Virus record (IMG/VR): IMGVR_UViG_3300025138_000340
Coordinates: 1-24,455 of that record
Source: a virus
DNA: 24,455 bases
Direction: 5' to 3' (one strand)
Position 1 is the stretch's first letter. Every line of letters begins with the position of its first letter. The notes beneath the pieces are model-generated. The model did no database searches, was not told the DNA's origin, and worked only from the letters and a program-made list of their open reading frames with translations. This document shows positions 2,519 through 22,662 of this stretch, one piece after another. A program made the translations under genes and the position numbers.

Positions 2519-3169
2519 ATGAAGATAGAAATAAACGTACCTACATCACTAAGTGAGATTACATTAAGACAATACCAAAAGTTCTTAAAGATAGCAGAAG
2601 ATAATCCAGAGGGTAATTTCTTGGATGCTAAAATGATAGAGATATTCTGTGGAATACCTTTATCAGATAGCTACAAATTAAAGATGTCTAGTGTTACTGC
2701 AATTATAGATATACTTACTGATATGCTAGAAGTAAGACCTAACCACATTGAGAGATTCAAACTCAATGGTGTTGAGTATGGTTTTATTCCAGATTTAGAC
2801 GAAATGTCTTTAGGAGAATACATAGACTTGGATAACAATGCTTCTAAATGGGACAATATGCACATAGCTATGAACGTATTGTACAGACCAGTTGTAACAA
2901 GTAAAGTAGGTAAATACAACATAGAAGAATACACAATAAGCAATCCAGAGAAGATGTTAGATATGCCATTAGATGCTGCATTAGGATCTTTATTTTTTTT
3001 TTATCATCTCGGAATAGAATTATCGAAGCATACGATTCTCTCTTCCAATCTGGAGGAGGTGGAGGAGTTTCAAGAGCAGCTAATTTCTCTGCAAAATGGG
3101 GTTGGTATCAATCAATTTATGGTCTCGCTGGAGGAGATGTTACAAGGTTTGAAGATATCACTAAATTAA
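2519..3169 (+). CDS. Tail assembly chaperone, zero-frame product (gpG-like)
   Basis: A 216-residue product beginning MKIEINVPTSLSEITLRQYQ, the type of start seen in Bacteroidota phage proteins read as tail assembly chaperones. It ends in SLFFF at a run of ten T and then continues in the zero frame for 55 residues (162-216). In siphophages the short chaperone form and a frameshifted long form together hold the tape measure during tail tube assembly. Here the -1 frame after the T run is open and protein-like (see the 2519-3252 entry), so the zero-frame tail overlaps a second coding frame for about 165 nt. The chaperone role is inferred from family resemblance, the frameshift layout and the tail-gene neighbours. 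Confidence 0.7.
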   Translation: MKIEINVPTSLSEITLRQYQKFLKIAEDNPEGNFLDAKMIEIFCGIPLSDSYKLKMSSVTAIIDILTDMLEVRPNHIERFKLNGVEYGFIPDLDEMSLGEYIDLDNNASKWDNMHIAMNVLYRPVVTSKVGKYNIEEYTISNPEKMLDMPLDAALGSLFFFYHLGIELSKHTILSSNLEEVEEFQEQLISLQNGVGINQFMVSLEEMLQGLKISLN

Positions 3170-3252
3170 ATATACATCAATGCTTTACAATGTTATCATT
3201 TATGAAAGAGAAAGCAGAGCTAGAAGCACAACAAATAAAAAGTAAGTTTTAA
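2519..3252 (+). CDS. Tail assembly chaperone, -1 frameshift fusion (gpGT-like)
   Basis: Slipping back one base on the TTT codons of the T run (2993-3002) moves reading to the codon starting at 3001. The new frame is open for 83 codons to TAA at 3250-3252, giving a protein of about 244 residues. The extension contains a Gly-rich linker and the segment FSAKWGWYQSIYGLAGGDV, followed by a Lys/Glu-rich helical end. It reads as a real folded domain, and its stop touches the ATG of the next gene at 3253. Nothing else explains the 83 nt after the zero-frame stop. The layout matches the G/GT pair of lambda. A homopolymer sequencing error (one T missing) would give the same long protein as a single frame. 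Confidence 0.75.
2993..3002 (+). other. Slippery T10 frameshift site
   Basis: Ten consecutive T lie in the zero-frame context TTA TTT TTT TTT TAT and allow re-pairing of two Phe tRNAs in the -1 frame. A hairpin of 8 bp (3040-3047 with 3051-3058, 3-nt loop, one G-U) lies 37 nt downstream. That is further away than a classical stimulator, so its part is uncertain. Confidence 0.65.
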
Positions 3253-3708
3253 ATGAAAGGATTTTATCAAGTAACCGAAACCATAAAGAATCAATTACTA
3301 TCAGATGTAAATGTAAACACAGTAACAACTGGAGACATTACAAAGATTGATTTATCAAAGCAGACAATATTTCCTTTATCACATTTAATAGTAAATAATG
3401 TAAACAACGAGGATAATGTTTTACGTTTTAACCTATCTGTTTTGTCTATGGATATTGTTGATGTATCGAAAGAAGCAGTAGTAGATATTTTTGTAGGTAA
3501 CGACAACGAGCAAGATATACTTAACACACAATTAGCAGTACTTAATAAACTAGCACAAGTTTTAAGAGGAGGGCAGTTACACCAAGACTTATACCAGTTA
3601 GATGGCAATCCTAGTTTAGAACCCTTTTACGATCGGTTTGAGAATGAGATGGCAGGTTGGGCAATGACATTTGATGTACTTGTAAATAATGATATAAGTA
3701 TATGTTAA
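3253..3708 (+). CDS. Putative tail completion or tail terminator protein
   Basis: A soluble 151-residue protein whose start directly follows the stop of the frameshifted chaperone. It is acidic, mixed alpha/beta in appearance, and ends ENEMAGWAMTFDVLVNNDI, an ending I recognise from conserved small structural proteins of Bacteroidota phages. Size and position, just before an HK97 gp10-like gene, fit a tail terminator or head-tail joining protein. That is inference; no catalytic motif is present. The last 7 nt overlap the next gene, pointing to coupled translation. Confidence 0.45.
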   Translation: MKGFYQVTETIKNQLLSDVNVNTVTTGDITKIDLSKQTIFPLSHLIVNNVNNEDNVLRFNLSVLSMDIVDVSKEAVVDIFVGNDNEQDILNTQLAVLNKLAQVLRGGQLHQDLYQLDGNPSLEPFYDRFENEMAGWAMTFDVLVNNDISIC

Positions 3709-4211
3709 AGAACGTACAACAAGAGCTAAACAGATTTGCTAAGTATGTGATACAACAATCAAGAACAAATCTAACAAAGGGTAAAAAGAATGGCTCTAAA
3801 GAACTCTATAATAGTTTAGACCATAAACTAAATGTAAGCCCTAATAGCTTTGGTTTAAAGTTCTTGATGGAGGACTATGGTATATTCCAAGACAAAGGAG
3901 TTAGTGGTAAAAAAGTAAAATACAATACACCTTATGCCTACAAAGATAAAATGCCTCCTCCAAGTAAAATGGACAAGTGGATCGTAAGAAAAGGGTTAAA
4001 AGGTGTAAGAGGTAAGGATGGTAAATTCATATCAAGAAAGTCTTTACAATTTATGATTGCAAGAAGTATCTACAACAAAGGTATTAAACCTAGTTTGTTT
4101 TTTACAAAGCCATTTGAGAAAGCATTTAAGAGATTAGACAAAGACATAATAGAAGCATACAAATTAGATGTTGAAGAACTACTAAAATTTACAACCAATG
4201 GCAATAATTAA
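3702..4211 (+). CDS. HK97 gp10-like tail/neck component (putative)
   Basis: A basic 169-residue protein. It contains a helical N-terminus (LNRFAKYVIQQSRTNL), a central YGIFQDKGVSG segment, a Tyr/Pro-rich loop and a C-terminal ARSIYNKGIKPSLFFTKPF segment. This pattern (helix, 'YG..Q..G' core, 'I...G..P..FF..A') resembles gp10-like minor tail or completion proteins that sit between head and tail. It overlaps the gene before by 7 nt and the gene after by 14 nt, so it belongs to a tightly coupled tail block. The family call is from motif likeness only. Confidence 0.5.
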   Translation: MLKNVQQELNRFAKYVIQQSRTNLTKGKKNGSKELYNSLDHKLNVSPNSFGLKFLMEDYGIFQDKGVSGKKVKYNTPYAYKDKMPPPSKMDKWIVRKGLKGVRGKDGKFISRKSLQFMIARSIYNKGIKPSLFFTKPFEKAFKRLDKDIIEAYKLDVEELLKFTTNGNN

Positions 4212-5262
4212 TACAAGAAGCCCACATTTTTTATCTGTATCAAATGCAAACCTAGCAACTGCTACTTTAAATATTGAGATTTATACTGGAAATGAAACAA
4301 CTGGTTATAGTGGTACACCTCAATACAACCTTAGTAAAAAGATAATACTAAACACAACTAAAATATCTTTTGAAATATCAGAGCTTATAAGAGACTATTT
4401 AGATATAACTTTTGAAGGAGATTATGATGCTTCTGCTGAACAATCTTGTAAATGGGTAAGAACAATACTTACTGCACTTGATGGTAATGGTGTACAATTA
4501 TCACAAACAATAAGCACAGATTTAGCCTTTGATAGTTATGGCTATTTTGAAGATAGTTCAAATTATTCTTTTGAATATGAAGGCTTATTAATGAGTAATA
4601 GTGAAATGTTTATAAAGTCTGGGGTTCCGATAAAGATACCAGTACAAACAGATAGAAATGTAACTGCTAAATTTTATGATTCAGATAATGGTATTTTAGA
4701 TTCTGAGACGTTTACTTTATCAGACCAATCACAAGACAAAGTAGTTTATACATCTTATACAGATGTCCAAGCAGTAAAGGCAACTATTCAATATACTGGA
4801 GATGCTGGTTCTGAAACTTCAACTATAAAAATATCACAATTAAGCGAGTGTAAATTCACACCTTATAAAACAACATTTATAAATAAGTTTGGAGTGTTGC
4901 AAGACTTATACTTCTTTAAAAAGTCAGTAGAGAAAATGACTACTAAAAGAGAAAGCTACAAAGCAAATATTTTATCATCAAGCAATACTTACAATGCCTA
5001 CAATCACACAAAAAGAGATTTCAATATCGTAGCAAACGAATCTGTTTCTTTAAGTAGTGGTTTTGTAAATGAATCTTACAACGAGGTGTTTAAGCAAATG
5101 ATGTTGTCAGAGAAGGTATGGATTACAAACCCAAACAATCAAGTATATCCTATCAATATAAAGACAAGCAACATTACATACAAAACAAGTGTAAATGATA
5201 GGCTAGTAGAATACACAATAGAGTTTGACAATTCATACAATGTTTTAAATGACATAAGGTAA
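4198..5262 (+). CDS. Putative distal-tail/baseplate structural protein
   Basis: A 354-residue protein rich in Thr, Ser, Asn and predicted beta strands, without signal peptide or membrane segment. The segments FINKFGVLQDLYFFKKSVE (mid-protein) and KVWITNPNNQVYPINIKTS (near the C-terminus) are of a kind repeatedly seen next to the large hub protein in Bacteroidota phages. The gene starts inside the previous one (14-nt overlap), and its TAA is followed directly by the ATG of the 776-residue protein. I infer a distal tail or baseplate role from location and fold type; no enzymatic residues are evident. Confidence 0.45.
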   Translation: MAIINTRSPHFLSVSNANLATATLNIEIYTGNETTGYSGTPQYNLSKKIILNTTKISFEISELIRDYLDITFEGDYDASAEQSCKWVRTILTALDGNGVQLSQTISTDLAFDSYGYFEDSSNYSFEYEGLLMSNSEMFIKSGVPIKIPVQTDRNVTAKFYDSDNGILDSETFTLSDQSQDKVVYTSYTDVQAVKATIQYTGDAGSETSTIKISQLSECKFTPYKTTFINKFGVLQDLYFFKKSVEKMTTKRESYKANILSSSNTYNAYNHTKRDFNIVANESVSLSSGFVNESYNEVFKQMMLSEKVWITNPNNQVYPINIKTSNITYKTSVNDRLVEYTIEFDNSYNVLNDIR

Positions 5263-7593
5263 ATGCAAAAAATACAACTATACATAGAAGGTCAGAGAGT
5301 AGATTTATTTGATGATGAAAGTGTTGTACTAACACAAACAATCCAGAACGTAAAAGACGTTCAGAAAGTGTTTACAGACTATTCAAAGACATTCACATTA
5401 CCAGCAACAAAAGAGAATAATAAAATATTTAAACACTATTACAACAATAGTATTACAAATGGTTTTGATGGTAGAAGTAGAGTAAGTGCAACCTTAGAAT
5501 TAAATTATTTAAAGTTTAGAAAAGGAAAAATAAAACTTGAAGGTGTTGATTTAAAAAACAATGTACCATCATCTTACAAAGTAAGATTTACTGGTAACAC
5601 AGTTACGTTAAAAGACTTGCTAGGAGAAGATAAACTAGGAGCTTTAACTAACTTAAATTCAAACACCTTAGTTTACAATGCTGCAAATGTAAAAACAAAG
5701 TTAAAAGCAAACCCAGCAACAAACGATGTTGTAGTTCCTTTAATAACACATACACAAAGGTTAATTTATAATAGCTTAACATCGAATAATGACAAAGGGA
5801 ATTTACATTATGATAGTAGCAATGTACATGGTGTTTCTTGGGATGACTTAAAATATGCAATAAGAGTAGATACTATTATACAAGCAATAGAAACAAACTA
5901 CGGAATAACATTTAGCAATGATTTCTTCAATAGCTCAAATGCACCTTACTACAATTTGTTTATGTGGCTACACAGAAAAAAAGGGTATGTAGAATCTCCA
6001 ACTGCAACAGAGGTAGAATCTTTAGTTAATACTTGGACTGCTACAAGTGTAGGTTCAACCATAACATCAATGTCAAACACATCAACTTTATTTGTTGGTG
6101 GTACTCCAAGCAGATACACTAAGCTAGATTTAAAACTAAGAACAACAAGTAGTTTTTCTTATAGTGCTTCTGTACAATTAAACGGAACAGAGATTTACAA
6201 TAGTGGAAGTGTAACTGGAGACTTAGATATAACAAAAGATGATATAGGAACATCACAAGGTACTTATAATGTTATTATACAATCAGCTCAAAATGTTACA
6301 TTCTCAGAGGTTACTTGGGATATTGGATATCAGCTTTTGGGGGGGATAGAAAGATTTAATACTTATACATCTGCATCTTTTTCTCATACCAATGCGTTTG
6401 ATTTTATTATAACACAACAGATACCAGAGATAAAATGTATTGATTTCTTAACTGGTATTTTTAAAATGTTTAATCTAACATCTTATGTTGATAATGATAC
6501 AGATAATGTTATTGTAAAAACTTTAGATAGCTATTATGCTGGAGGTACTTCTTATGATGTAACTGAATTTGTAGATAGGGATAAAAGCTCTGTTAATGTT
6601 GCGTTACCATTTAAAGAAATAACCTTTGAACACGGAGATACAAAAACACTTTTAGCCAATACACATTCACAACTATTTAATAAAACTTGGGGCAAGACAG
6701 AGTATAAAAATGGAGAAAAATTAGATGGTAAAATATACAAAGTAAAAACACCTTTCTCACAATTAAAAAATGAAAGATTACTTGATTCAAATACTGGTAA
6801 TTCAACATCTATTCAGTATGGGTTTTTTGTAGATGACAATCAAGATCCTTACTATGGTAAACCTTTATTGTTTTATCCAATTTTAAATAGTGGTAATAGC
6901 ATATCTTTTTTAGATACTACAAGCAGTAATTCAGAAATAGCACAATATAATATACCATCAAATAGTGTTGCATTAGCATCATCAACAAGCAAGTATAATA
7001 TCAATTTCAATAATGAGATAAACGAATATACTGCTGACAATACATTTACAAATACTTTATTTCAAGCATACCATAAAGATTACATATCTGATGTATTTGA
7101 TGTAACAAACAGACTAACAAAAGTAACTGCATATTTACCTCTAAGAATCTTGCTTAATTATACACTAGCAGATAGGTTTAATATTAGTGGTTCTACTTAC
7201 AAGATTAATAGCATTAAGACAAATATGCTTACTGGTAAATCTGACTTAGAGTTGTTAAATGATATTTATACACCTCCAGCTCCAGCAATTCCTCCAGATA
7301 CAACTGCACCAACTGCACCAGTTGTTTACACACCAAGTACAATAATAGGTACAACACAAGTTTATTTCTGTTGGGCTGCTTCAAGTGATGGTTCTGGTGT
7401 AGGTGTAAAAAGTTACTCAGTAACACAAGATGGAGTGCTTATACAGAGAGTTACTGCAACACCTTTACAAGACTTTTATTGTGTTACCGTAACTGGATTA
7501 GCAAGTGGTACATCTTATACGTTTGGAATAACTGCAACAGACTTTAATAGTAATGTATCATCAATAACTAATTATCCAATAACAACGTCATGA
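5263..7593 (+). CDS. Large tail/baseplate hub protein with C-terminal fibronectin III domain
   Basis: A 776-residue structural protein. The N-terminus contains FTDYSKTFTLPATKENNKIF (about residues 37-56), a hallmark-like stretch of tail hub proteins in Bacteroidota phages. The middle is beta-rich. A Pro/Ala/Thr linker at about 666-690 leads to one fibronectin type III domain (about 690-776) with the typical end GLASGTSYTFGITATD. Such domains on tail tips often contact host surface glycans. It is the largest gene of the tail block, starts directly after the previous stop and overlaps the next mini-gene by 4 nt (ATGA). The hub role is inferred; no peptidoglycan hydrolase motif was seen. Confidence 0.6.
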   Translation: MQKIQLYIEGQRVDLFDDESVVLTQTIQNVKDVQKVFTDYSKTFTLPATKENNKIFKHYYNNSITNGFDGRSRVSATLELNYLKFRKGKIKLEGVDLKNNVPSSYKVRFTGNTVTLKDLLGEDKLGALTNLNSNTLVYNAANVKTKLKANPATNDVVVPLITHTQRLIYNSLTSNNDKGNLHYDSSNVHGVSWDDLKYAIRVDTIIQAIETNYGITFSNDFFNSSNAPYYNLFMWLHRKKGYVESPTATEVESLVNTWTATSVGSTITSMSNTSTLFVGGTPSRYTKLDLKLRTTSSFSYSASVQLNGTEIYNSGSVTGDLDITKDDIGTSQGTYNVIIQSAQNVTFSEVTWDIGYQLLGGIERFNTYTSASFSHTNAFDFIITQQIPEIKCIDFLTGIFKMFNLTSYVDNDTDNVIVKTLDSYYAGGTSYDVTEFVDRDKSSVNVALPFKEITFEHGDTKTLLANTHSQLFNKTWGKTEYKNGEKLDGKIYKVKTPFSQLKNERLLDSNTGNSTSIQYGFFVDDNQDPYYGKPLLFYPILNSGNSISFLDTTSSNSEIAQYNIPSNSVALASSTSKYNINFNNEINEYTADNTFTNTLFQAYHKDYISDVFDVTNRLTKVTAYLPLRILLNYTLADRFNISGSTYKINSIKTNMLTGKSDLELLNDIYTPPAPAIPPDTTAPTAPVVYTPSTIIGTTQVYFCWAASSDGSGVGVKSYSVTQDGVLIQRVTATPLQDFYCVTVTGLASGTSYTFGITATDFNSNVSSITNYPITTS

Positions 7594-7718
7594 TAAAAGA
7601 GATATTAGAGTTACTAAAAGATACAGACTGCAAGTCTGAGATAGTACAAATAGCAAAAGGAAAAAATAAGTTTCCAGATAGTTTTAAAGAATTAATAAAA
7701 AGAGAATGGAAAAAATAA
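7590..7718 (+). CDS. Small charged protein of unknown function (42 aa)
   Basis: The ATG shares ATGA with the stop of the hub gene, and the frame runs to TAA at 7716-7718, overlapping the tape measure start by 13 nt. The product (MIKEILELLKDTDCKSEIVQ...) is helical and Lys/Glu-rich. It fills exactly the gap between hub and tape measure, and the stop-start overlaps at both ends argue for a real coupled gene. Function unknown. Confidence 0.55.
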   Translation: MIKEILELLKDTDCKSEIVQIAKGKNKFPDSFKELIKREWKK

Positions 7719-9571
7719 TTGTAGAGCTAGAAGCAAAAACAGACAAAGCCTTAAAAGGAATTGATAGTGTTGCAAAGAGTGTTGAAGATTTAAACAAAGC
7801 AACCACAGAATCAAATGAAAATACTGCCAAGTCTTTAAAAGAAGTGGAGAAGTCATCTAAACAAACAGCAATAAGTATAAAGAGTGTTGGTAATGCTATT
7901 AAAGCTGCTGGTATAGGATTACTAATTGCTGCATTTGCTAAAATAAAAGATGTTCTTTCTAAAAATCAGAAGTTTTTAGATGCTTTTAACGTAACAATGG
8001 AAGCTATTTCAATAGTTACAAATGACTTTGTAAAACTAGTTTTAGATAATTTTGACGAGGTAGGAAAGAAAATGAAGTCTGTTTTTGATGATCCTAAAGC
8101 ATCTATGCAATCTTTTGGGCAAAGTTTTAAAGATAATGTTACAGATAAATTTGATAGTCTTATTGGTAGATTTACAAATGCTGGAGATGGTTTTAAAAAG
8201 TTATTTAGCAGAGATTTTGAAGGTGCTATGGAGTCTTTTGGTAAATCATTTAAAGATGTAATACTTTCTCAAATTCCATTCGGAGAATCTATAAAAGAAA
8301 ATGCAAATGCTATAAAAGATTATGCTACTGAAGTTTTAGATACAGCAATTAATATTACTGAATTAGCTAAAAAATCAGCTTTACTTGAAGAAGTAAATAA
8401 AGGTCTTATTGAAAAATATGATATACAAGCTGAAAAACAAAGACAGATAAGAGATGATGAAACTTTAACCTTTGAGGTAAGAAGAAAAGCAAATGAAAAA
8501 CTAGGCGAAATACTTACAGAACAAGGTAGGGTAATGAAAAATAATGCTCAAGTAGCAGTTGATTTAGCAAGAGCTAAAGTGAAACAAAATGATAATGATG
8601 AAAATCAATTAGAATTACAAAGAGCATTAAACGAACAAGCAGCAGTTACTGCAAGAGTTACTGGTCAAATGTCTGAACAAAAAATAAATATAAATTCTCT
8701 TGATAAAGAACAATTAGAAAATAAAAAAGAGTTATTAAAAATTGGTAAAGAAGGTAGAGAGTTAGTAGAGATAGAATCTCAGCAAACACTTGATGCTCAA
8801 ATTTTACTTATTAATAAAACTATTGAAAACGAAGAAGAAAAAAACAGATTATTATTTGAAGCAAGAAAAGCTCACGTTAATAGAATGAAAGAATATGATG
8901 ATGAGCAACAAGTAATCATAGACGAAAAACAAATTGCTGATTCAGAAAAAGCAAGACAATTTGCAGATGAACAAATCGCATTAGAAGAAGAAATTGCAAG
9001 AAGAAAAAGACAAATAAATATGCAATATATTGGTTTTGCTGCTGGTTTAAGTGGATTACTACAACAAATAGCTGGTAAAAATAAAGCTATAGCTACTGCT
9101 GGTTTAATATTAGAAAAGGGTGCTGCTATTGCTAACGTAGTAATAGGTGCAAGTCAATCTATATTTGAAGCTAAAAAAAATGAAGCAGCAGTACCATTTT
9201 TTACATCTGTTGGAGGTTTCACAATACCAAACCCATTAAAACCAGCATCTTTAGCCCTAACTGCAAAATCAATAGCAATGACAAAGATAGGTGCTGGATT
9301 AGCAATTGCTGGAATTGGTGCTACTGCTATTGGTCAAGGTAAAAGTATCTCTGGAGGAGGGGGAGGTCAAATATCTACACCATCTGTACCAACTGGAGCA
9401 TCTACACCTCCAGCATTTAATGTGGTTGGTCAAAGTGATACAAACCAATTAGCATCTGCTATTGGAGGGCAATCTCAACAACCAGTTCAAGCATACGTTG
9501 TAGCAAACGATGTAACAACTGCACAGAGTATGGATAGAAATATTGTAAATGATGCAAGTTTAGGAGATTAA
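7706..9571 (+). CDS. Tail tape measure protein
   Basis: A 621-residue protein of the tape-measure type. It has a Lys/Glu/Thr-rich coiled-coil start, a hydrophobic segment at about 64-80 (AIKAAGIGLLIAAFAKI), a long alpha-helical charged middle, and two Gly/Ala/Ile-rich hydrophobic stretches near 459-483 and 514-545. A Gly/Ser/Pro-rich tail (GGGGGQISTPSVP) follows. Tape measures set siphovirus tail length and enter the host envelope during injection. At the usual rule of about 1.5 angstrom per residue, 621 residues suggest a tail near 90 nm. It closes the tail block; the next gene starts a head block behind its own motif. Confidence 0.85.
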   Translation: MEKIIVELEAKTDKALKGIDSVAKSVEDLNKATTESNENTAKSLKEVEKSSKQTAISIKSVGNAIKAAGIGLLIAAFAKIKDVLSKNQKFLDAFNVTMEAISIVTNDFVKLVLDNFDEVGKKMKSVFDDPKASMQSFGQSFKDNVTDKFDSLIGRFTNAGDGFKKLFSRDFEGAMESFGKSFKDVILSQIPFGESIKENANAIKDYATEVLDTAINITELAKKSALLEEVNKGLIEKYDIQAEKQRQIRDDETLTFEVRRKANEKLGEILTEQGRVMKNNAQVAVDLARAKVKQNDNDENQLELQRALNEQAAVTARVTGQMSEQKININSLDKEQLENKKELLKIGKEGRELVEIESQQTLDAQILLINKTIENEEEKNRLLFEARKAHVNRMKEYDDEQQVIIDEKQIADSEKARQFADEQIALEEEIARRKRQINMQYIGFAAGLSGLLQQIAGKNKAIATAGLILEKGAAIANVVIGASQSIFEAKKNEAAVPFFTSVGGFTIPNPLKPASLALTAKSIAMTKIGAGLAIAGIGATAIGQGKSISGGGGGQISTPSVPTGASTPPAFNVVGQSDTNQLASAIGGQSQQPVQAYVVANDVTTAQSMDRNIVNDASLGD

Positions 9572-9592
9572 AAATACAAAAAACAGCAACTA

Positions 9593-9604
9593 TTTCATTA
9601 TATA
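9593..9604 (+). promoter_or_regulatory. Late-gene upstream motif, copy 4 (TTTCATTATATA)
   Basis: An exact TTTCATTATATA ending 3 nt before the ATG of the protease gene at 9608. If TATATA acts as the promoter core, transcription would begin at or next to the start codon. Confidence 0.55.
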
Positions 9605-9607
9605 TAC

Positions 9608-10315
9608 ATGAGACTGATTGAATTAATTTTAGATGATGACGAAGCAATAGGTGTAGAAGCTATTTCTGTTGTTGAAAACCCAGCAATTGAATCAGATTTT
9701 ATTGCTTTAAACAACCAAGAAATAAAACTTGCTGAGATAAACAAAGAGAAACGTTTATTGATGGGGGCTTTACTTATACCAAAGAAACCTATTTACAGAA
9801 AGTCTGGAGAAGATGAGTACTACATATTCTTTTCTGAAAAGACAATTGCAAAAGCATCTCAATTATATCTACAAAACGGAAACCAATCCGAAGCAACACT
9901 AGAACACAAAGACCAATTAAAAGATTTAACACTTGTAGAATCTTGGATCGTAGAAGATAAACAAAAAGACAAGACTGCTTTATATGGTTTAGATGTACCA
10001 GTAGGTACTTGGATGGGTTCTGTAAAAGTTGAGAACGATGAGATTTGGAATGACTATGTAAAAACTGGAAAAGTAAAAGGTTTCTCAATTGAAGGTTATT
10101 TCGCAGATAAAATGGTAAGACCTAATGAAGAGTTAAAAGAACACTTAATGAAATATCCTCACACTATGTACAATCCTAAAACTGGTGCAAGTGTTAAGAT
10201 AATGACTAAAGCAGAACATGACAAATACACTAAAAAAGGTTGGGTACATAGCAAGCCAAGTAGTTACCAAGAGGAATTAGAGAAACTAGCAGAACTTAAA
10301 AAACTTTTATCCTAA
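9608..10315 (+). CDS. XkdF-like prohead protease
   Basis: A 235-residue protein with the N-terminal pattern EAIGVEAISVVENPAIESDF, typical of XkdF-type (Peptidase S78-related) phage proteases. Candidate catalytic residues are H100 (LEHKD) and S160 (KGFSIEGYF); the His before GFS-Ser layout matches herpes/HK97-type assemblin proteases. It would cleave the scaffold and possibly capsid precursors during head maturation, and it stands upstream of a scaffold-like gene and the major capsid gene as expected. The C-terminal MTKAEHDKYTKKGWVHSKPS segment is common in this protein type. Its stop overlaps the next mini-gene (TAATG). Confidence 0.8.
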   Translation: MRLIELILDDDEAIGVEAISVVENPAIESDFIALNNQEIKLAEINKEKRLLMGALLIPKKPIYRKSGEDEYYIFFSEKTIAKASQLYLQNGNQSEATLEHKDQLKDLTLVESWIVEDKQKDKTALYGLDVPVGTWMGSVKVENDEIWNDYVKTGKVKGFSIEGYFADKMVRPNEELKEHLMKYPHTMYNPKTGASVKIMTKAEHDKYTKKGWVHSKPSSYQEELEKLAELKKLLS

Positions 10316-10440
10316 TGAAAGCCAAATATTGCTATTGCAAAAACACCTACACCTTAAAAGAATGTGATTGTAAGAAGTGTAAAAACAGAGAGCATTGGAG
10401 GCAGGGCATCGGTAAAATAAGAAAAACAGAAGAAAGTTAA
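10315..10440 (+). CDS. Cysteine-rich mini-protein, possible zinc-binding (41 aa)
   Basis: The ATG overlaps the protease stop (TAATG), and the frame ends with TAA at 10438-10440. The product has five cysteines (C6, C8, C17, C19, C22) and H27 in the pattern CYC...CDCKKC, within a strongly basic chain. The spacing suggests one small metal-binding knuckle. Nothing identifies a family. The overlap and the lack of any other content between protease and scaffold genes support it as a real gene. Confidence 0.55.
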   Translation: MKAKYCYCKNTYTLKECDCKKCKNREHWRQGIGKIRKTEES

Positions 10441-10467
10441 AAACGAAAATACAAAATTAACAAGTAA

Positions 10468-10479
10468 ATTAATTATATA
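10468..10479 (+). promoter_or_regulatory. Late-gene upstream motif, copy 5 (degenerate)
   Basis: ATTAATTATATA differs from the consensus at two or three bases but keeps ATTATATA, and it ends 3 nt before the ATG at 10483. It heads the scaffold and major capsid pair. Confidence 0.35.
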
Positions 10480-10482
10480 TAC

Positions 10483-11064
10483 ATGAACACAGACAGAACA
10501 TTACTAAACAAAGCAAGAGTTTTACTCGGTATAGAAGTAAAGCTAGAGCAAATGAAACTAGACAATGGTGCAGTCTTAGAAGCTGAAGTATTTGAAGCTG
10601 GTGCAGAAATTTTCGTTGTTGCAGACGAGGATCGTGTACCAGTACCAGTTGGAGAATACGAAGCAGAAGGCAAAACTATTGTAGTATCAGAAGAAGGTGT
10701 GATTGGAGAAATCAAAGAAGCAAGTGCAGAAGAAGAAGCACCAGCAGAAGAAGCTCCAGTTGCAGAAGAAGAGTTAGCAACAGAAGAAGCTACTCCTAAA
10801 AAAATAGTTAAATCAATATCAGAAGAAATGTTCTTCTCAGAAATTGAAAAACTAAGAACCGAGATCAACGAACTAAAACTTTCTAAAACAGAAGTTGTTG
10901 CAGAAGAGGTAGTAGTTGAAGAAGAAAAAGTAGAGTTATCAGAAGTAGAAGGTATAACACACACACCAGAAAATACATCTGATAAAAAAGAAACAAATCT
11001 TTATTCTCAAAAAGGGAATAAAAACACAACAATAAATAGAATTTTTAACGCAATAAATAAATAA
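10483..11064 (+). CDS. Scaffold-like acidic protein preceding the major capsid gene
   Basis: 193 residues in three parts. First is a short ordered region with two beta-like segments (to about residue 75, including VPVPVGEYEAEGKTIVVSEE). Next is a very acidic Glu/Ala/Pro-rich linker with repeats such as EEAPAEEAP (about 80-108). Last is a coiled-coil helix (MFFSEIEKLRTEINELKLS) with an Asn/Thr/Lys-rich end. Charge, coiled coil and position between protease and capsid fit a scaffolding protein that the protease would degrade. The ordered start could instead be a decoration-type domain. Only 3 nt separate it from the capsid gene. Confidence 0.6.
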   Translation: MNTDRTLLNKARVLLGIEVKLEQMKLDNGAVLEAEVFEAGAEIFVVADEDRVPVPVGEYEAEGKTIVVSEEGVIGEIKEASAEEEAPAEEAPVAEEELATEEATPKKIVKSISEEMFFSEIEKLRTEINELKLSKTEVVAEEVVVEEEKVELSEVEGITHTPENTSDKKETNLYSQKGNKNTTINRIFNAINK

Positions 11065-11067
11065 ATA

Positions 11068-12006
11068 ATGGCTACAACAACAAGTATTACTTCCACTTAT
11101 GCTGGAGAATTTGCTGGAAAATACGTTTCAGCAGCTCTATTAAGTGGTAACACAATCGCAAATGGTTTAATCGAAGTAAAACCAAATGTAAAATTTAAAG
11201 AAGTATTAAAAGTGGTATCAATTGATGGTATAACTGCTAATGCTACTTGTGATTTCTCTGATACATCAACTGTAACGTTGACTGAGAGAATAATTCAACC
11301 CAAGCAGTTACAAGTAAATTTGGAATTGTGCGTAAACAATTTCCGTTCTGATTGGGAAGCTGAATCACAGGGGTTCAGCAGTCACGATAACCTACCTAAA
11401 AATTTCTCTGATTACTTTATCGGAAGAATCTCTCAGAAGGTAGCACAAAAAACAGAGCAAGATATCTGGAGTGGAACTGATGGAGCTGGTGCTTTTGATG
11501 GTTTTACAACTTTATTAGCTGCTGACTCTGCACATACTGGAGCTAAAAAGATTACTGGACAAGCAGTAACTGCTGCAAATGTAGTAGCTGAGCTAGGAAG
11601 TATTGTAGATGCTATTCCAAGTTCTTTATATGGTAACGATGATTTATTCGTTTATGTTTCTCAGAACATCTTCAGAGCATACAAAAGAGCTTTAGGTGGT
11701 TTCCAAGCTGGAGGTCAAGGAGCTAATGGATATATGGCACAAGGTAACAACCAAGACATCGACATCCAATATTTTGATGGTGTAAAAATTGTTGCTTGTA
11801 ACGGATTAGCTGACAACAAAGCAATCGCTACTTTGAAATCAAACTTATACTTTGGAACATCGGTATTAAGTGATTTTAATGAATGTAAGGTCTTGGACAT
11901 GAGTGATTTAGACGGAAGTTCAAATGTAAGATTTATCATGAAATATGCAGCAGCAGTACAATATGCTATTGTTGGAGATATCGTTTCTTACGGATTAGGA
12001 TTGTAA
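11068..12006 (+). CDS. Major capsid protein (HK97-fold, inferred)
   Basis: 312 residues beginning MATTTSITSTYAGEFAGKYV, the usual form of flavobacterial phage capsid proteins. It has FRSDWEAESQGFSSHDNLP in the middle region and an Ala-rich C-terminal core (MKYAAAVQYAIVGDIVSYGL). Codons ending in C (for example GAC ATC GAC ATC) are more frequent than in neighbours, which fits very high expression. It follows protease and scaffold, and a strong terminator lies 23 nt after its stop. HK97 fold membership is inferred from gene context and length. Confidence 0.85.
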   Translation: MATTTSITSTYAGEFAGKYVSAALLSGNTIANGLIEVKPNVKFKEVLKVVSIDGITANATCDFSDTSTVTLTERIIQPKQLQVNLELCVNNFRSDWEAESQGFSSHDNLPKNFSDYFIGRISQKVAQKTEQDIWSGTDGAGAFDGFTTLLAADSAHTGAKKITGQAVTAANVVAELGSIVDAIPSSLYGNDDLFVYVSQNIFRAYKRALGGFQAGGQGANGYMAQGNNQDIDIQYFDGVKIVACNGLADNKAIATLKSNLYFGTSVLSDFNECKVLDMSDLDGSSNVRFIMKYAAAVQYAIVGDIVSYGLGL

Positions 12007-12029
12007 GATAATCTAATAAATAATTATAA

Positions 12030-12062
12030 AGGGTAGGTAGTTCATCTACTTACCCTTTTTTT
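12030..12062 (+). terminator. Rho-independent terminator after the capsid gene
   Basis: An 11-bp stem with one G-U (12030-12040 with 12046-12056) and a 5-nt loop TTCAT is followed by T12056-T12062. It would end or reduce transcripts from the capsid gene before the next gene. Confidence 0.85.
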
Positions 12063-12085
12063 AATAACTAAAAAAATATAACACA

Positions 12086-12613
12086 ATGGCTTGTTTACTT
12101 ACATCTGGTAGAGCTTTACCTTGTAAAAGTAGTGTTGGTGGCTTAAAGGCAGTATATTTCGCAGACTATGGTACTTTGGGTGCTACAACAATAGCATCTG
12201 GAGAAATTACTGCATTAGCTGGTACACCTACCTTCTTTAAATTTGATATCAAGGGTAATTCTTCACTAGAAACCAATATTAATAGTTCAACAGAAAACGG
12301 AACTACATTTTACACACAAACTTTAAATTTAACATTACCAGTTTTAGATAAAGCTACACAAGAAGAAATAAAATTATTAGCTACTGCAAGACCTCACGTT
12401 GCAATAGAAGATTATAATGGTAATTTCTTTTTAGTAGGTTTAGAACACGGAGCAGAGGTAACTGGAGGTACAATTGTATCTGGTGCTGCTATGGGAGATT
12501 TAAGTGGATTTACTTTGACCTTAGAAGGTCAAGAAACCGACGCAGCATATTTTGTAACACCAGCTGTAATAACTGCTGATACAAGTGCAACGCAAATAGA
12601 TCCAAACGCATAG
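12086..12613 (+). CDS. Probable major tail (tube) protein
   Basis: A beta-rich 175-residue protein beginning MACLLTSGRALPCKSSVGG, with FFKFDIKGNSSLETNINSS and FTLTLEGQETDAAYFV further on. The 'ACxxTSGRxxPCK..VGG' start recurs in small structural proteins located beside the capsid gene of Bacteroidota phages. Its size and its own transcription unit, bracketed by two terminators as for a very abundant protein, suggest the tail tube subunit. A capsid decoration protein is the main alternative. It lies far from the other tail genes, which is unusual. Confidence 0.55.
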   Translation: MACLLTSGRALPCKSSVGGLKAVYFADYGTLGATTIASGEITALAGTPTFFKFDIKGNSSLETNINSSTENGTTFYTQTLNLTLPVLDKATQEEIKLLATARPHVAIEDYNGNFFLVGLEHGAEVTGGTIVSGAAMGDLSGFTLTLEGQETDAAYFVTPAVITADTSATQIDPNA

Positions 12614-12639
12614 TTTTTTTGATTTTTGATTTGATTTTA

Positions 12640-12670
12640 GGGCATTCTTTCGAGGATGCTCTTTTTTTTT
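12640..12670 (+). terminator. Rho-independent terminator with UUCG loop
   Basis: A 9-bp stem with two G-U pairs (12640-12648 with 12653-12661) is closed by a UUCG tetraloop (12649-12652) and followed by nine T (12662-12670). It ends the unit holding the probable major tail gene. Confidence 0.85.
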
Positions 12671-12697
12671 ATACAAATTAATAAAAAAGGCTTCTTA

Positions 12698-12709
12698 TTT
12701 CATTATATA
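12698..12709 (+). promoter_or_regulatory. Late-gene upstream motif, copy 6 (TTTCATTATATA)
   Basis: An exact TTTCATTATATA, 28 nt after the preceding terminator and ending 4 nt before the ATG at 12714. As it is the only signal between a terminator and a new gene block, it is the best argument that the motif marks a transcription start. Confidence 0.6.
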
Positions 12710-12713
12710 TAAG

Positions 12714-13061
12714 ATGAAACACTTAACACCATCTACAAACTCACAAACGATAAAAATTATACCAAGAGTATATGATACATCTGTAACAATTAAGTTAAGA
12801 GATGATAGCACTAACTCAGAGGTAGAGATAACACCTACTGCAATTGTAAACAAAAACTACTTAGAGCTTTCTAGTGTGTTTGCATTAATAGAGGGTAGAT
12901 TTTATGATTTAAAAGTATATAACGGACAAGACATCATTTATAGAGACAAGATTTTTTGTACTAGCCAATCAACTAACCAATCAAACAACGAACATTACTC
13001 GGTAAATAAAAACGAGTATGTACAAGAAGATGGTGGTAATAATGATTTTATAATATTATGA
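12714..13061 (+). CDS. Conserved-looking phage protein upstream of the portal gene
   Basis: 115 residues, beta-rich start (SQTIKIIPRVYDTSVTIKLR), a segment RFYDLKVYNGQDIIYRDKIF, then an Asn/Gln/Ser-rich stretch and the end GNNDFIIL. I recognise this type from Bacteroidota phages but know no function. It may be a small head or neck protein. The last 4 nt (ATGA) overlap the portal start, so the two are probably co-translated. Confidence 0.6.
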   Translation: MKHLTPSTNSQTIKIIPRVYDTSVTIKLRDDSTNSEVEITPTAIVNKNYLELSSVFALIEGRFYDLKVYNGQDIIYRDKIFCTSQSTNQSNNEHYSVNKNEYVQEDGGNNDFIIL

Positions 13062-14878
13062 GAAAAAACATAAGAAAAACAAAACCAACCATAAATAACA
13101 AAAGCAAATCATCTGTTTCTTTTGTTAATTTATCTTCTTACACCTCTCCAGAGATTGTAGAGAATAAAAACAAAGAATGGATAGAGTTTGGTGCAGACAA
13201 TGACTATTTTAAATTCTTAATTGATAGATACAACGGAAGTCCTACAAACAATGCTTGTATAAACTCTATCTCTCAGCTAATATTTGGTAAAGGCTTAGAT
13301 GCTACTGATAGTGCAAGGAGACCAGAGCAATATGCAAGAATGATATCTCTATTTAAGAAAGACGATGTTAGAAGGTTTGCTTATGATTTAAAACTTACTG
13401 GTCAATGTGCTATGCAAGTAATTTACTCAAAAAATAGAAAGACTATTGAGAAAGTAGAGCATTTACCTATTGAGACTTTAAGAGCTGAGAAATGTGGAGA
13501 AAAAGACAAACAAGTACAAGCATATTACTATCATGCAGACTGGGTAAATATAAAGCCAAGTGATAAACCCTTAAGAATACCTGCTTTTGGTGTTTCAGAT
13601 ACACCTAAACCTATTGAGATACTATATGTTAAACCCTATGTAGCTGGAATGTATTATTATTCAACTCCAGACTATCAAGGAGGGTTGCAATATTCAGAGT
13701 TAGAAGAAGAAATAAGTAACTACCATATTAATAATGTACAAAATGGTCTTGCTCCTAGTATGTTAATCTCAATGAATAATGGAGTACCTGATGAAGAACA
13801 ACAAAGGTTAGTTGAAAACAAGATAAAACAAAAATTTGGTGGATCGTCTAATGCTGGTAAATTTATACTTGCTTTTAACGATGATAAAGAGAGTGCTGCA
13901 ACAATTGAAGCAGTACAATTATCAGATGCACACAACCAATACCAATTTTTAAGTGATGAGGCACAGAAAAAAATAATGGTGGCTCATAGGATTGTATCTC
14001 CTATGCTTTTAGGTATTAAAGATTCAACTGGATTTGGTAATAATGCAGAAGAATTAGAGACTGCTTCTATACTGATGAACAATACAGTTATCACACCATT
14101 TCAAGAGCTTTTAACAGATGCTTTTGATAAAATACTTGCTTTCAATAATATTAGCTTAAACCTTTATTTCAAGACCTTACAACCTCTACAATTTATTGAT
14201 TTAGAGAATGTAAAAGATGAAGAAACAAGAGAAGAAGAGACTGGTGTAAAGATGTCAAAAGTATTCTCTGATTTAGAACAACTAGGGGAGGATGAAGATT
14301 TAGAGAATTGGGAATTGATTGACGAAAGAAAGGTAGACTATGATGCAGAAGATGAATTAAATGAGGAACTAAATAAGTTAAACAATCCTAAACAATCTAC
14401 ATTGTCAAAGATGTACAATTTTGTTACTACTGGAACTGCTAGACCAAATGCAAAGAGTAAGCAAGACGGAGAAAATGAAGAAGGTGTACAATTTAGGGTA
14501 CGATATCAATACGCACCATTAAGTTATAGTGCAAATAGTAGAGATTTTTGCAAGAAAATGGTAAATGCTGCTAAGATATACAGAAAAGAAGATATAGACA
14601 GAATGAGTACAATGCCAGTTAATGCTGGTTGGGGATTAAACGGAGCTGATACTTACGATATATGGTTGTATAAAGGTGGTGGAGATTGCCATCATTTTTG
14701 GATGAGAAAGACTTACAAAGCAAAGAAGAAAGGAATTAAACCAAGTGTTGGTAACCCTAATGCTGAGGTTAGTGTAAATAAGGCTAAAAAAGAAGGGTTT
14801 AAACCAGAGGTAAATGCAAAAGAAGTAGCAAAAAGACCTACTGATATGCCAAATAACGGATTTGTAAATAAAAAATAA
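13058..14878 (+). CDS. Portal protein with C-terminal extension
   Basis: 606 residues. The first 400 form a portal-type protein: YNGSPTNNACINSISQLIFG (about 53-72), a central helical region with VSPMLLGIKDSTGFGNNAEE, and the long helix MNNTVITPFQELLTDAFDKI. Portals form the dodecameric DNA channel at one capsid vertex. A very acidic linker (about 408-445) leads to a separate C-terminal part (about 475-560) with R480-V-R-Y, SANSRDFCKKMV and GGGDCHHFW (540-548). That part resembles MuF/minor-head-like tails fused to portals in Bacteroidota phages. The portal lies downstream of capsid and tape measure genes rather than next to terminase. Confidence 0.85.
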   Translation: MRKNIRKTKPTINNKSKSSVSFVNLSSYTSPEIVENKNKEWIEFGADNDYFKFLIDRYNGSPTNNACINSISQLIFGKGLDATDSARRPEQYARMISLFKKDDVRRFAYDLKLTGQCAMQVIYSKNRKTIEKVEHLPIETLRAEKCGEKDKQVQAYYYHADWVNIKPSDKPLRIPAFGVSDTPKPIEILYVKPYVAGMYYYSTPDYQGGLQYSELEEEISNYHINNVQNGLAPSMLISMNNGVPDEEQQRLVENKIKQKFGGSSNAGKFILAFNDDKESAATIEAVQLSDAHNQYQFLSDEAQKKIMVAHRIVSPMLLGIKDSTGFGNNAEELETASILMNNTVITPFQELLTDAFDKILAFNNISLNLYFKTLQPLQFIDLENVKDEETREEETGVKMSKVFSDLEQLGEDEDLENWELIDERKVDYDAEDELNEELNKLNNPKQSTLSKMYNFVTTGTARPNAKSKQDGENEEGVQFRVRYQYAPLSYSANSRDFCKKMVNAAKIYRKEDIDRMSTMPVNAGWGLNGADTYDIWLYKGGGDCHHFWMRKTYKAKKKGIKPSVGNPNAEVSVNKAKKEGFKPEVNAKEVAKRPTDMPNNGFVNKK

Positions 14879-19846: not shown

Positions 19847-20563
19847 ATGGGAAAAGAAGAAAGACCAAGACTTAAAGGTAAAATATTAAAAGCCTACAAG
19901 AATTTAATACAAGACCAACAACGCATCTTAGTTATTGGAGACCTACACGAGCCATTTTGTTTAGAGGGTTATTTAAAACATTGCAAAGATGTTTATGCAA
20001 AACACAATTGTAACAAGGTAATATTTATAGGAGATGTTATCGATAATCATTATTCTTCTTTTCACGATCCTGACCCAGATGGAATGGGTGGAGGAGATGA
20101 ACTTGATTTAGCTATTTATAAATTATCAAGATGGTATAATGCTTTTCCAGTAGCTGACGTTTGTATCGGTAATCACGATAGAATTATTTCTCGTAAAGCA
20201 TTTGCATCTGGAGTACCTAAAAGATGGGTTAAGACATTTGGAGAAGTATTAGAAACTCCTAATTGGAATTTTAATACTCGTTTTGTTTATGATAATGTAC
20301 AATACATTCATGGAGAATCTGGTAGAGCTACAAAGAAAGCAAAAGATGATATGCAGTCTACTGTTCAAGGGCATAGGCATACAGAAATGTTTACTGAGTT
20401 TGCAGTTGGTGCTAATTTTAAAGTCTTTGGTTGTGCAGTTGGTTGTGGTATAGACAATACATCTTATGCTATGGCTTATGGTAAGAACTTTAAGAAACCA
20501 GCTATTGGTTGTGCAGTTGTGTTTGGGGGTAGTTACGCAATTAACGAGCCTATGCACTTATAA
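19847..20563 (+). CDS. Calcineurin-like metallophosphoesterase
   Basis: 238 residues with the full motif set of the family: GDLH (D32, H34), GDVID (D63), GNHD (108-111), YIHGE (H155) and GHRH (175-178). These bind two metal ions for hydrolysis of a phosphoester; substrate unknown (nucleic acid, nucleotide or phosphoprotein). Related genes occur in Bacteroidota phages, where the role is unclear. Standing last in the late region next to the integrase and with its own upstream motif, it may be an accessory (moron-like) gene. Its stop TAA shares TTATAA with the integrase stop on the opposite strand. Confidence 0.9.
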   Translation: MGKEERPRLKGKILKAYKNLIQDQQRILVIGDLHEPFCLEGYLKHCKDVYAKHNCNKVIFIGDVIDNHYSSFHDPDPDGMGGGDELDLAIYKLSRWYNAFPVADVCIGNHDRIISRKAFASGVPKRWVKTFGEVLETPNWNFNTRFVYDNVQYIHGESGRATKKAKDDMQSTVQGHRHTEMFTEFAVGANFKVFGCAVGCGIDNTSYAMAYGKNFKKPAIGCAVVFGGSYAINEPMHL

Positions 20564-21838
20564 TATAAAGTCTATTTTTTCAGACCAATCCTCTGGAATG
20601 TCTGCATCTATTTTATGGATATACATCTCAAGAGCTTGTTGCGTTTCATGACCAGTAATTGGTTGTAGTTCTTTTATTGCTTCTGAGTAGCTTTTGTTCT
20701 CAGTACTTCTTAAATACCTAAAAAGATTTGTAATAAAAGAATGACGGAAAGAATACAAACCATATTCTTTGCCTAAGTTGAATTTATTTTTTACTTTTTT
20801 AAATCGTTTACTAAATGCGTCTCTTCTTGTATTATCGTCTGTATTCCATTCTGCTGGTTTATTTTTTAATGTAAATAAAAAGTACTCCTTATTATATAGG
20901 TGTAAATTCATTGCTTTTACATCCTCTATAAATATACTTGGAATGCGTTTTGTTTTTTGAGGTTTGTTTTTTGCTTTAAAATATAAAAGATTTTCTTCTA
21001 GGTTTACATCTTTTACTTTTAATCTGTTTACCTCAACTGGACGTAGAAAGCAATACGAGACAAAACGGATATACATTAATAGGTACGGATCGTTATTTTT
21101 TAAATAGTCTACAATATCTTTAAGTTCTTTTCTAGTAAAGGTTCTATCTGTTTTTGGTTTTGTCTTTTCGTTACCTATGTCTTTAATAAAGTTTCTATCT
21201 ATTAAATTAAGTTTGTTTTCCATTATAGTAAACAGAGCTGATAGAGATGCTTTTGAGTTGTTGCGAGTTCTTGCAGATGTTTCTTTTAGTTTTTGATTTA
21301 AGAATTTAAGAACAACAGACTTTGTTAAATCATTTATGTCTTTGTTTTGATTATATTTAAGAAAGTCTAAAAATTGGTTCTTTGTATGGAGGTAGTCTTT
21401 AGATGTTATTTTAGAAACAGATAGAGTACAATGTTCATAAGCTAACTCTAATGCTTCTTTTATAGTATGTACTTTTTTTTCATCTTCAAAGTTGTTTAAA
21501 TTAAAAGGGGAGTAGCCATTTCTAATTGCAGTTTCTAATCCAAACTTTAAATTCTTTAAATGCCTTACTCTATCCTCAAATTTTTTTAATTTATTAACTC
21601 CTCCTTTTAAATGGCTTTGCCTTTCTAGTTTGTTTGTATTTGGATTTCTAAAAGACCATCTTAAATACCAAGACTTTTTTAGTGCTTTTGTTTTTTCACT
21701 TTTGCTTAAATATTTCCATTCATTGACGTTTATTCCTCCAGTATAAAAAGAAATAGTGTATTTTTTTTGCATTTTTTTTAAAACATCTAGTGCGTACTCT
21801 ACAACGTATTTTTGAAGTATTTTTTTATTTTTCTTCAT
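20558..21838 (-). CDS. int: Tyrosine recombinase (phage integrase)
   Basis: 426 residues. A Bacteroidota-type N-terminal region (WYLRWSFRNPNTNKLERQ at about 57-74) is followed by a SAM-like core-binding domain (about 125-215) and a catalytic domain with R266 (FLRPVEV), lysines K288/K290 in the beta hairpin, YSFRH (Y362, R365, H366), GH (396-397) and nucleophile Y406 (MYIHK). The first His of the usual HxxRH box is Tyr, a variant I know from Bacteroidota recombinases. It lies immediately beside the tRNA-derived attachment core and should integrate the phage there. A second Met at residue 23 is possible but would cut the N-terminal domain. Confidence 0.95.
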   Translation of the reverse strand: MKKNKKILQKYVVEYALDVLKKMQKKYTISFYTGGINVNEWKYLSKSEKTKALKKSWYLRWSFRNPNTNKLERQSHLKGGVNKLKKFEDRVRHLKNLKFGLETAIRNGYSPFNLNNFEDEKKVHTIKEALELAYEHCTLSVSKITSKDYLHTKNQFLDFLKYNQNKDINDLTKSVVLKFLNQKLKETSARTRNNSKASLSALFTIMENKLNLIDRNFIKDIGNEKTKPKTDRTFTRKELKDIVDYLKNNDPYLLMYIRFVSYCFLRPVEVNRLKVKDVNLEENLLYFKAKNKPQKTKRIPSIFIEDVKAMNLHLYNKEYFLFTLKNKPAEWNTDDNTRRDAFSKRFKKVKNKFNLGKEYGLYSFRHSFITNLFRYLRSTENKSYSEAIKELQPITGHETQQALEMYIHKIDADIPEDWSEKIDFIL

Positions 21839-22326: not shown

Positions 22327-22662
22327 TTATTCTTTTAAAATTTGAATAGCTCTCTTTTGGCTTTCAACTTCAAACCATAAACTATAAATTTCTACTTGTA
22401 GGAGTTTATGGTGGTTTTTTATTACATCAGATGCTAAATCTTTTAGGGATTCTAGTTCTTCAATACCTATATCAGCATTTGATCCTACACCATGTTTTTC
22501 CTTTAAATAATTATTTAAAAGAATTTTAACACTTTCATTCATAATTCTCTCACCAGATTCCCACATTTGAACGGTTCTTAAACCTAAACCAAACAATTTA
22601 CCAAATTCGGTCTGTGTTAGGTTTAATTTTTTGCGCATTTTTTTTATTTCTAAAGGGCTCAT
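22327..22662 (-). CDS. HTH repressor-like regulator (lysogeny control candidate)
   Basis: 111 residues. An N-terminal Cro/C1-type (HTH_3) domain includes TQTEFGKLFGLGLRTVQMWE (16-35). A short helical C-terminal part (about 68-111) may serve dimer formation. There is no LexA-type S24 autocleavage domain, so RecA-driven self-cleavage is not expected and induction must work otherwise (for example by an antirepressor). It is divergent from the early operon with two 20-bp operator-like repeats between, the usual layout of a phage switch. Confidence 0.8.
   Translation of the reverse strand: MSPLEIKKMRKKLNLTQTEFGKLFGLGLRTVQMWESGERIMNESVKILLNNYLKEKHGVGSNADIGIEELESLKDLASDVIKNHHKLLQVEIYSLWFEVESQKRAIQILKE

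Follow-up and report, generated by a model that had tools for sequence, protein, structure and literature searches.

The window analysed here is a stretch of 24,455 bases, the whole of an IMG/VR virus record from a marine Bacteroidota phage, and carries at positions 2519–3252 of the plus strand a gene that appears to be expressed through two reading frames. The zero-frame open reading frame (2519–3169, +) encodes a protein of 216 amino acids, hereafter G, delimited by its reading frame and by a match to phrog_32199 (E = 1.7e-20). The frame passes through ten consecutive T at 2993–3002 (+), read as TTT TTT TTT T, and this T10 run is the candidate slip site, holding an in-frame U_UUU_UUU heptamer at 2995–3001. 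From 3001 onwards, the −1 frame stays open for 83 codons, with its stop at 3250–3252 abutting the ATG of the next gene (3253–3708, +; phrog_30964, unknown function). The zero frame extends 55 codons (165 nt) beyond the run, such that the two frames overlap, zero-frame stop included, over 3002–3169 (+). The initial annotation had placed the T10 run, both of its reading frames and the abutting ATG at these positions, all of which were found to be correct. Joining the 161-residue G part to the 83 codons of the −1 frame, the T domain (3001–3252, +), gives a predicted G–T fusion of 244 residues. In AlphaFold2 models of G and T, built as separate chains and not as a fusion, the G domain is confident to about residue 170–175 and followed by a low-confidence zero-frame tail, with pLDDT mostly >85 up to residue 160 and <50 beyond ~184, and the −1-frame T segment is modelled as helical.

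The surroundings of the gene show several further features. A DNA methyltransferase-like gene (1608–2342) lies between the terminase gene and that of G, the terminase of Nonlabens phage P12024S standing directly before the equivalent gene. The order across 2519–14878 is unusual, with the putative chaperone and tail genes first, followed by capsid and portal, placing the tail block before the head block. An integrase/recombinase-like gene, recognised by eye (20558–21838, −), and a nearby helix-turn-helix-like gene (22327–22662, −) suggest a temperate phage.

The −1 relation between G and T extends well beyond the window. Viral contigs were scanned twice independently, using the zero-frame protein and the −1 segment as queries, and the 80 best of the hundreds of relatives given by each scan were retained; tblastn E-values from the scans apply to candidate stretches only. 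In every one of these relatives that was examined, the −1 segment is read in the −1 frame relative to the upstream domain, and the switch falls at a T run. Profile searches gave 365 loci with both parts, spanning the Nonlabens phages P12024S and P12024L, Flavobacteriaceae prophages, freshwater contigs and very divergent Bacteroidota prophages (L363, L364), and in all 365 the C-terminal domain follows the N-terminal one with a −1 shift, at a pure run of 9, 10 or 12 T. Peptide patterns containing FF, a possible bias towards T-rich sites, were used in two of the scans but not in the first two. These relatives share descent and are not independent observations, a kinship that the cluster counts given below lessen but do not remove. 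The view that the −1 product is a real domain is borne out, with both tails having hundreds of homologues in the same −1 relation, far beyond chance. The cultured phage P12024S carries a T9 run with a −1-frame T segment at the same place. Its two halves belong to the same gene family as the gene in the window (PHROG 32199), but are annotated as two hypothetical proteins, P12024S_38 and P12024S_39, the latter beginning at an ATG inside the −1 frame, with the fusion missing from the annotation. In Flavobacterium phage 6H, a weak BFVD match, no comparable T-run frame switch was seen in the two regions read.

Homopolymers are error-prone and some distant relatives are single ORFs, as would be seen if a sequencing or assembly error in the T run were hiding one ordinary gene. 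However, the same −1 relation recurs in independent metagenomes, in cellular genomes and in the finished P12024S/L genomes, and this explanation is ruled out by the comparative data. Near-identical contigs from other metagenomes (L082/L002 and L083/L003, n = 2) also carry T10, and no eleven-T versions occur among the relatives.

The overlap itself was examined by comparing differences at four-fold degenerate sites over 92 non-redundant relatives. Zero-frame four-fold differences stand at 0.51 upstream of the overlap and drop to 0.34 and 0.14 within its two halves, and −1-frame differences are 0.18 and 0.21 within the overlap, compared with 0.43 past the zero-frame stop. By this measure, selection acts on both frames of the overlap, confirming the earlier suggestion of ~165 nt of dual coding. 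Conservation of the zero-frame tail as a mere shadow of the T frame was considered and rejected, with the codon-position test showing two-frame constraint within the main clade. The zero-frame tail nevertheless seems to matter less than the T segment, since in one locus (L030) of the 112 distinct ones an early TAA interrupts the zero frame with the −1 frame still open, and distant relatives such as P12024S have a zero-frame tail of other length and sequence. The early stop in L030 is either an error or a sign that the tail is dispensable.

Natural fusions of the two parts provide further evidence on the nature of the T segment. Foldseek comparison with predicted viral proteins (BFVD) returned several single proteins of 226–267 amino acids that match both the G and T models. 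Among cellular genomes, L384 is a single ORF of 244 amino acids with a T-like segment in frame and no T run, and L386 is a single ORF of 273 amino acids with an in-frame T-like segment at a T7 run. Given these single-ORF fusions and the BFVD proteins matching both models, the T segment qualifies as a genuine C-terminal extension of G. The G parts of L384, L386 and L387 are only marginally similar to those of the window's family by profile comparison, and the homology of these loci therefore rests mainly on the T segment and the architecture. L385, like L384, is an in-frame G–T-like single ORF without a T run at the junction. L386 and L387 have G parts that are 76% identical, with L387 carrying T9 and a −1 switch where L386 is fused at T7, and near locus position 1500 they form a natural pair for comparing frameshift with fusion.

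The L386/L387 pair represents an evolutionary switch in run length, and homopolymers this long mutate readily, both of which might suggest replication slippage or phase variation, with the genomic run varying in length to yield a mixture of fused and short genes. We consider this highly improbable, as the frame relation is always −1 in hundreds of genomes, register changes come with matching substitutions, and the window's family yielded no in-frame variant. Furthermore, two-frame selection in the overlap requires that both products are made routinely.

A cousin family of Bacteroidia prophages (L365–L370 and L378–L423) shows the same G-to-T −1 architecture at runs of T7, T8 or T9 (zero frame ...RVTEALPIAKHFF), with T7 in 30 of 40 distinct sites, T8 in six and T9 in four. 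Since exactly seven T are used in 30 of the 40 sites, nine T's are not necessary for the G–T architecture. The cousin T7 sites keep the classical U_UUU_UUU phase, A CAT TTT TTT ATG, and their third frame is open for up to 32 codons.

Sequence and fold searches gave no Pfam, NCBIfam or PDB match for G or T, and profile comparison detected no similarity between lambda G and T and those of the window. The tail assembly chaperone assignment made in the initial annotation is all the same well supported by architecture and synteny. In locus L424, a 636-residue protein (L424:4393–6300) that matches tape-measure PHROGs (E = 7e-11) is immediately preceded by the G homologue (32% identical, E = 2e-37) and T. 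The window encodes a probable tape measure protein of 621 amino acids (7706–9571, +), recognised by its similarity to that of L424 (25% identity, E = 4e-22) and by a weak match to phrog_1272, ~4.5 kb downstream of the chaperone gene in the same tail block, with four genes between. The in-frame G–T fusions of distant relatives and the L424 pair directly upstream of the tape measure strongly suggest a G/GT tail assembly chaperone as the best identification. As with lambda gpG/gpGT, two products would share a common N-terminal domain, with a −1 transition near the end of G, and the lambda order upstream of the tape measure is matched in L424. The gene in the window differs from lambda gpG/gpGT, which uses a mixed heptamer, in its pure run of at least nine T and its 165-nt overlap selected in both frames. 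It is unlikely, though conceivable, that the frameshift is real but serves some other tail or head-tail factor and not a chaperone of the tape measure. The distance of ~4.5 kb from the tape measure gene, the position beside terminase and methylase genes and the fact that curated families never name this protein a chaperone would fit such a role, whereas the position of the L424 homologue immediately before the tape measure gene, one weakly matching BFVD neighbour (E = 0.015) annotated as a tail assembly chaperone, and the G/GT architecture, which is characteristic of chaperones, argue against it.

The form of the T run bears on how the two frames are joined. In the window's family the run is pure, with at least nine T at the slip site in 220 distinct relatives (lengths 9, 10 or 12) and in all 66 clusters formed at 80% T-domain identity; clustering at 60% identity leaves 17 clusters, with fourteen runs of nine, three of ten and none shorter. 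The run is never 7–8 T long, though it starts in all three codon registers, namely GTT TTT TTT TAT, TTT TTT TTT CTG, and GCT, ACT or AGT followed by TTT TTT TTx. When the preceding codon is GCT, ACT or AGT, which costs the run a T on its left, a TTC or TTG on the other side makes up the count to exactly nine. Elsewhere on the same contigs such runs are avoided: over 417 non-redundant genes (105,661 codons), with members of the chaperone family left out, T≥9 was observed once compared with 11.6 expected from synonymous shuffling, and in-frame T7 was observed 36 times compared with 49 expected. Runs of A≥9 are also depleted in these other genes (14 observed, 38 expected), as would be expected if long homopolymers harm these genomes. 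In 63 of the 66 clusters a stop appears in the third frame within four codons, partly on account of the dual-coded TTTAGG/TTTAAG. The absence of a close downstream hairpin, remarked upon in the initial annotation, was reproduced, with a single-sequence folding z of −0.5 for the window, a mean per-sequence z of 0.02 in relatives, and zero consensus pairs downstream over 41 relatives using RNAalifold, whose model does not cover pseudoknots. The same program gave zero consensus pairs downstream over 38 sequences of the cousin family.

A run that is always at least nine T in any register, the rarity of T≥9 elsewhere, the lack of conserved structure and the early third-frame stops together favour transcriptional slippage, which, judging by these patterns, is probably the mechanism in the window's family. 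In many genomes, nine A/T is the length at which selection against slippage shows (PMC1088944), Tn tracts (n>8) have been reported for transcriptional slippage (PMC3711429), and poly-T is preferred for slippage by the E. coli RNA polymerase (PMC6260861). The site also resembles established transcriptional realignment sites, such as those of the Shigella mxiE/spa genes, Thermus dnaX and IS1447, in having an A/T homopolymer of at least nine at a conserved frame transition, in that a conserved stimulator was not found, and in the avoidance of such runs elsewhere. Unlike these sites, the run in the window serves a phage tail chaperone and also holds an in-frame slippery heptamer, and slippage here is a candidate.

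Run length alone is not decisive, since the in-frame U_UUU_UUU is found within every run of T≥9 and neighbouring Phe, Val, Leu, Tyr or Trp codons account for part of the T beyond seven. Programmed −1 ribosomal frameshifting, in which tandem tRNA-Phe would slip on U_UUU_UUU (2995–3001) as in lambda G/GT, here with no obvious stimulator, is accordingly a serious possibility, albeit one to which we give less than an even chance. The ever-present heptamer, the retention of exactly A CAT TTT TTT ATG in most cousin sites and the classically ribosomal nature of chaperone frameshifting (PMC5009743) are all consistent with it. However, neither family shows conserved downstream structure, U_UUU_UUU shifts E. 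coli ribosomes only weakly when stimulators are lacking (PMC4066793, PMC5009743), and ribosomal slippage leaves unexplained why no run of 7 or 8 T is seen across registers in the 17 clusters, and why other slippery heptamers never appear. Nor is the T7 of the cousins proof of a ribosomal slip, polymerase slippage on seven residues having been reported in places (PMC6211511, PMC6260861). As one extra U in the mRNA equals a −1 slip of the ribosome, both mechanisms yield the same protein, and peptides cannot discriminate between them. Of the programmed −1 frameshift proposed in the initial annotation, the frame transition at T10 stands as real, conserved and programmed, giving G and the G–T fusion with strong support from comparative sequence data; the ribosomal nature of the slip is not established.

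Taken together, we consider it somewhat probable that 2519–3252 is a two-product G/GT tail assembly chaperone gene in which slippage occurs mainly by RNA polymerase on T≥9. Most mRNAs would yield the 216-residue G, ending at the zero-frame stop, and in a minority reading would switch to the −1 frame at the T run and give the 244-residue fusion. RNA polymerase slipping on T≥9 would bring the T frame into phase through an extra U in the mRNA, and the G:GT ratio may thereby be set at transcription. By analogy with lambda (PMC5009743), G would coat the tape measure protein, and tail tube subunits would be recruited by the T domain of the less abundant fusion. The conserved −1 relation, the two-frame selection and the natural in-frame fusions, on which this model builds, are demonstrated at the level of sequence.

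The G/GT kind of gene is already known, the pure T≥9 signal being new. No described case of transcriptional slippage involving a tail chaperone, tape measure or phage tail was found in the open-access subset of the literature, which is weak evidence of novelty. Frameshifting in tail chaperones is a textbook case of ribosomal recoding. Here, a bare T≥9 tract is kept across very diverse Bacteroidota phages, together with an overlap of 165 nt in which both frames are under selection, and current annotation misses or splits the C-terminal half of the chaperone. The chances seem about even that a large, unannotated group of Bacteroidota phages sets its G:GT ratio by polymerase slippage on T≥9, with cousins using a T7 ribosomal heptamer and a third lineage having fused the two parts, as three interchangeable solutions to the same task. 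The existence of T7, T9 and fused relatives makes transcriptional slippage testable within one gene family and, if the slip is transcriptional, the stoichiometry of tail assembly in these phages would be set by RNA polymerase.
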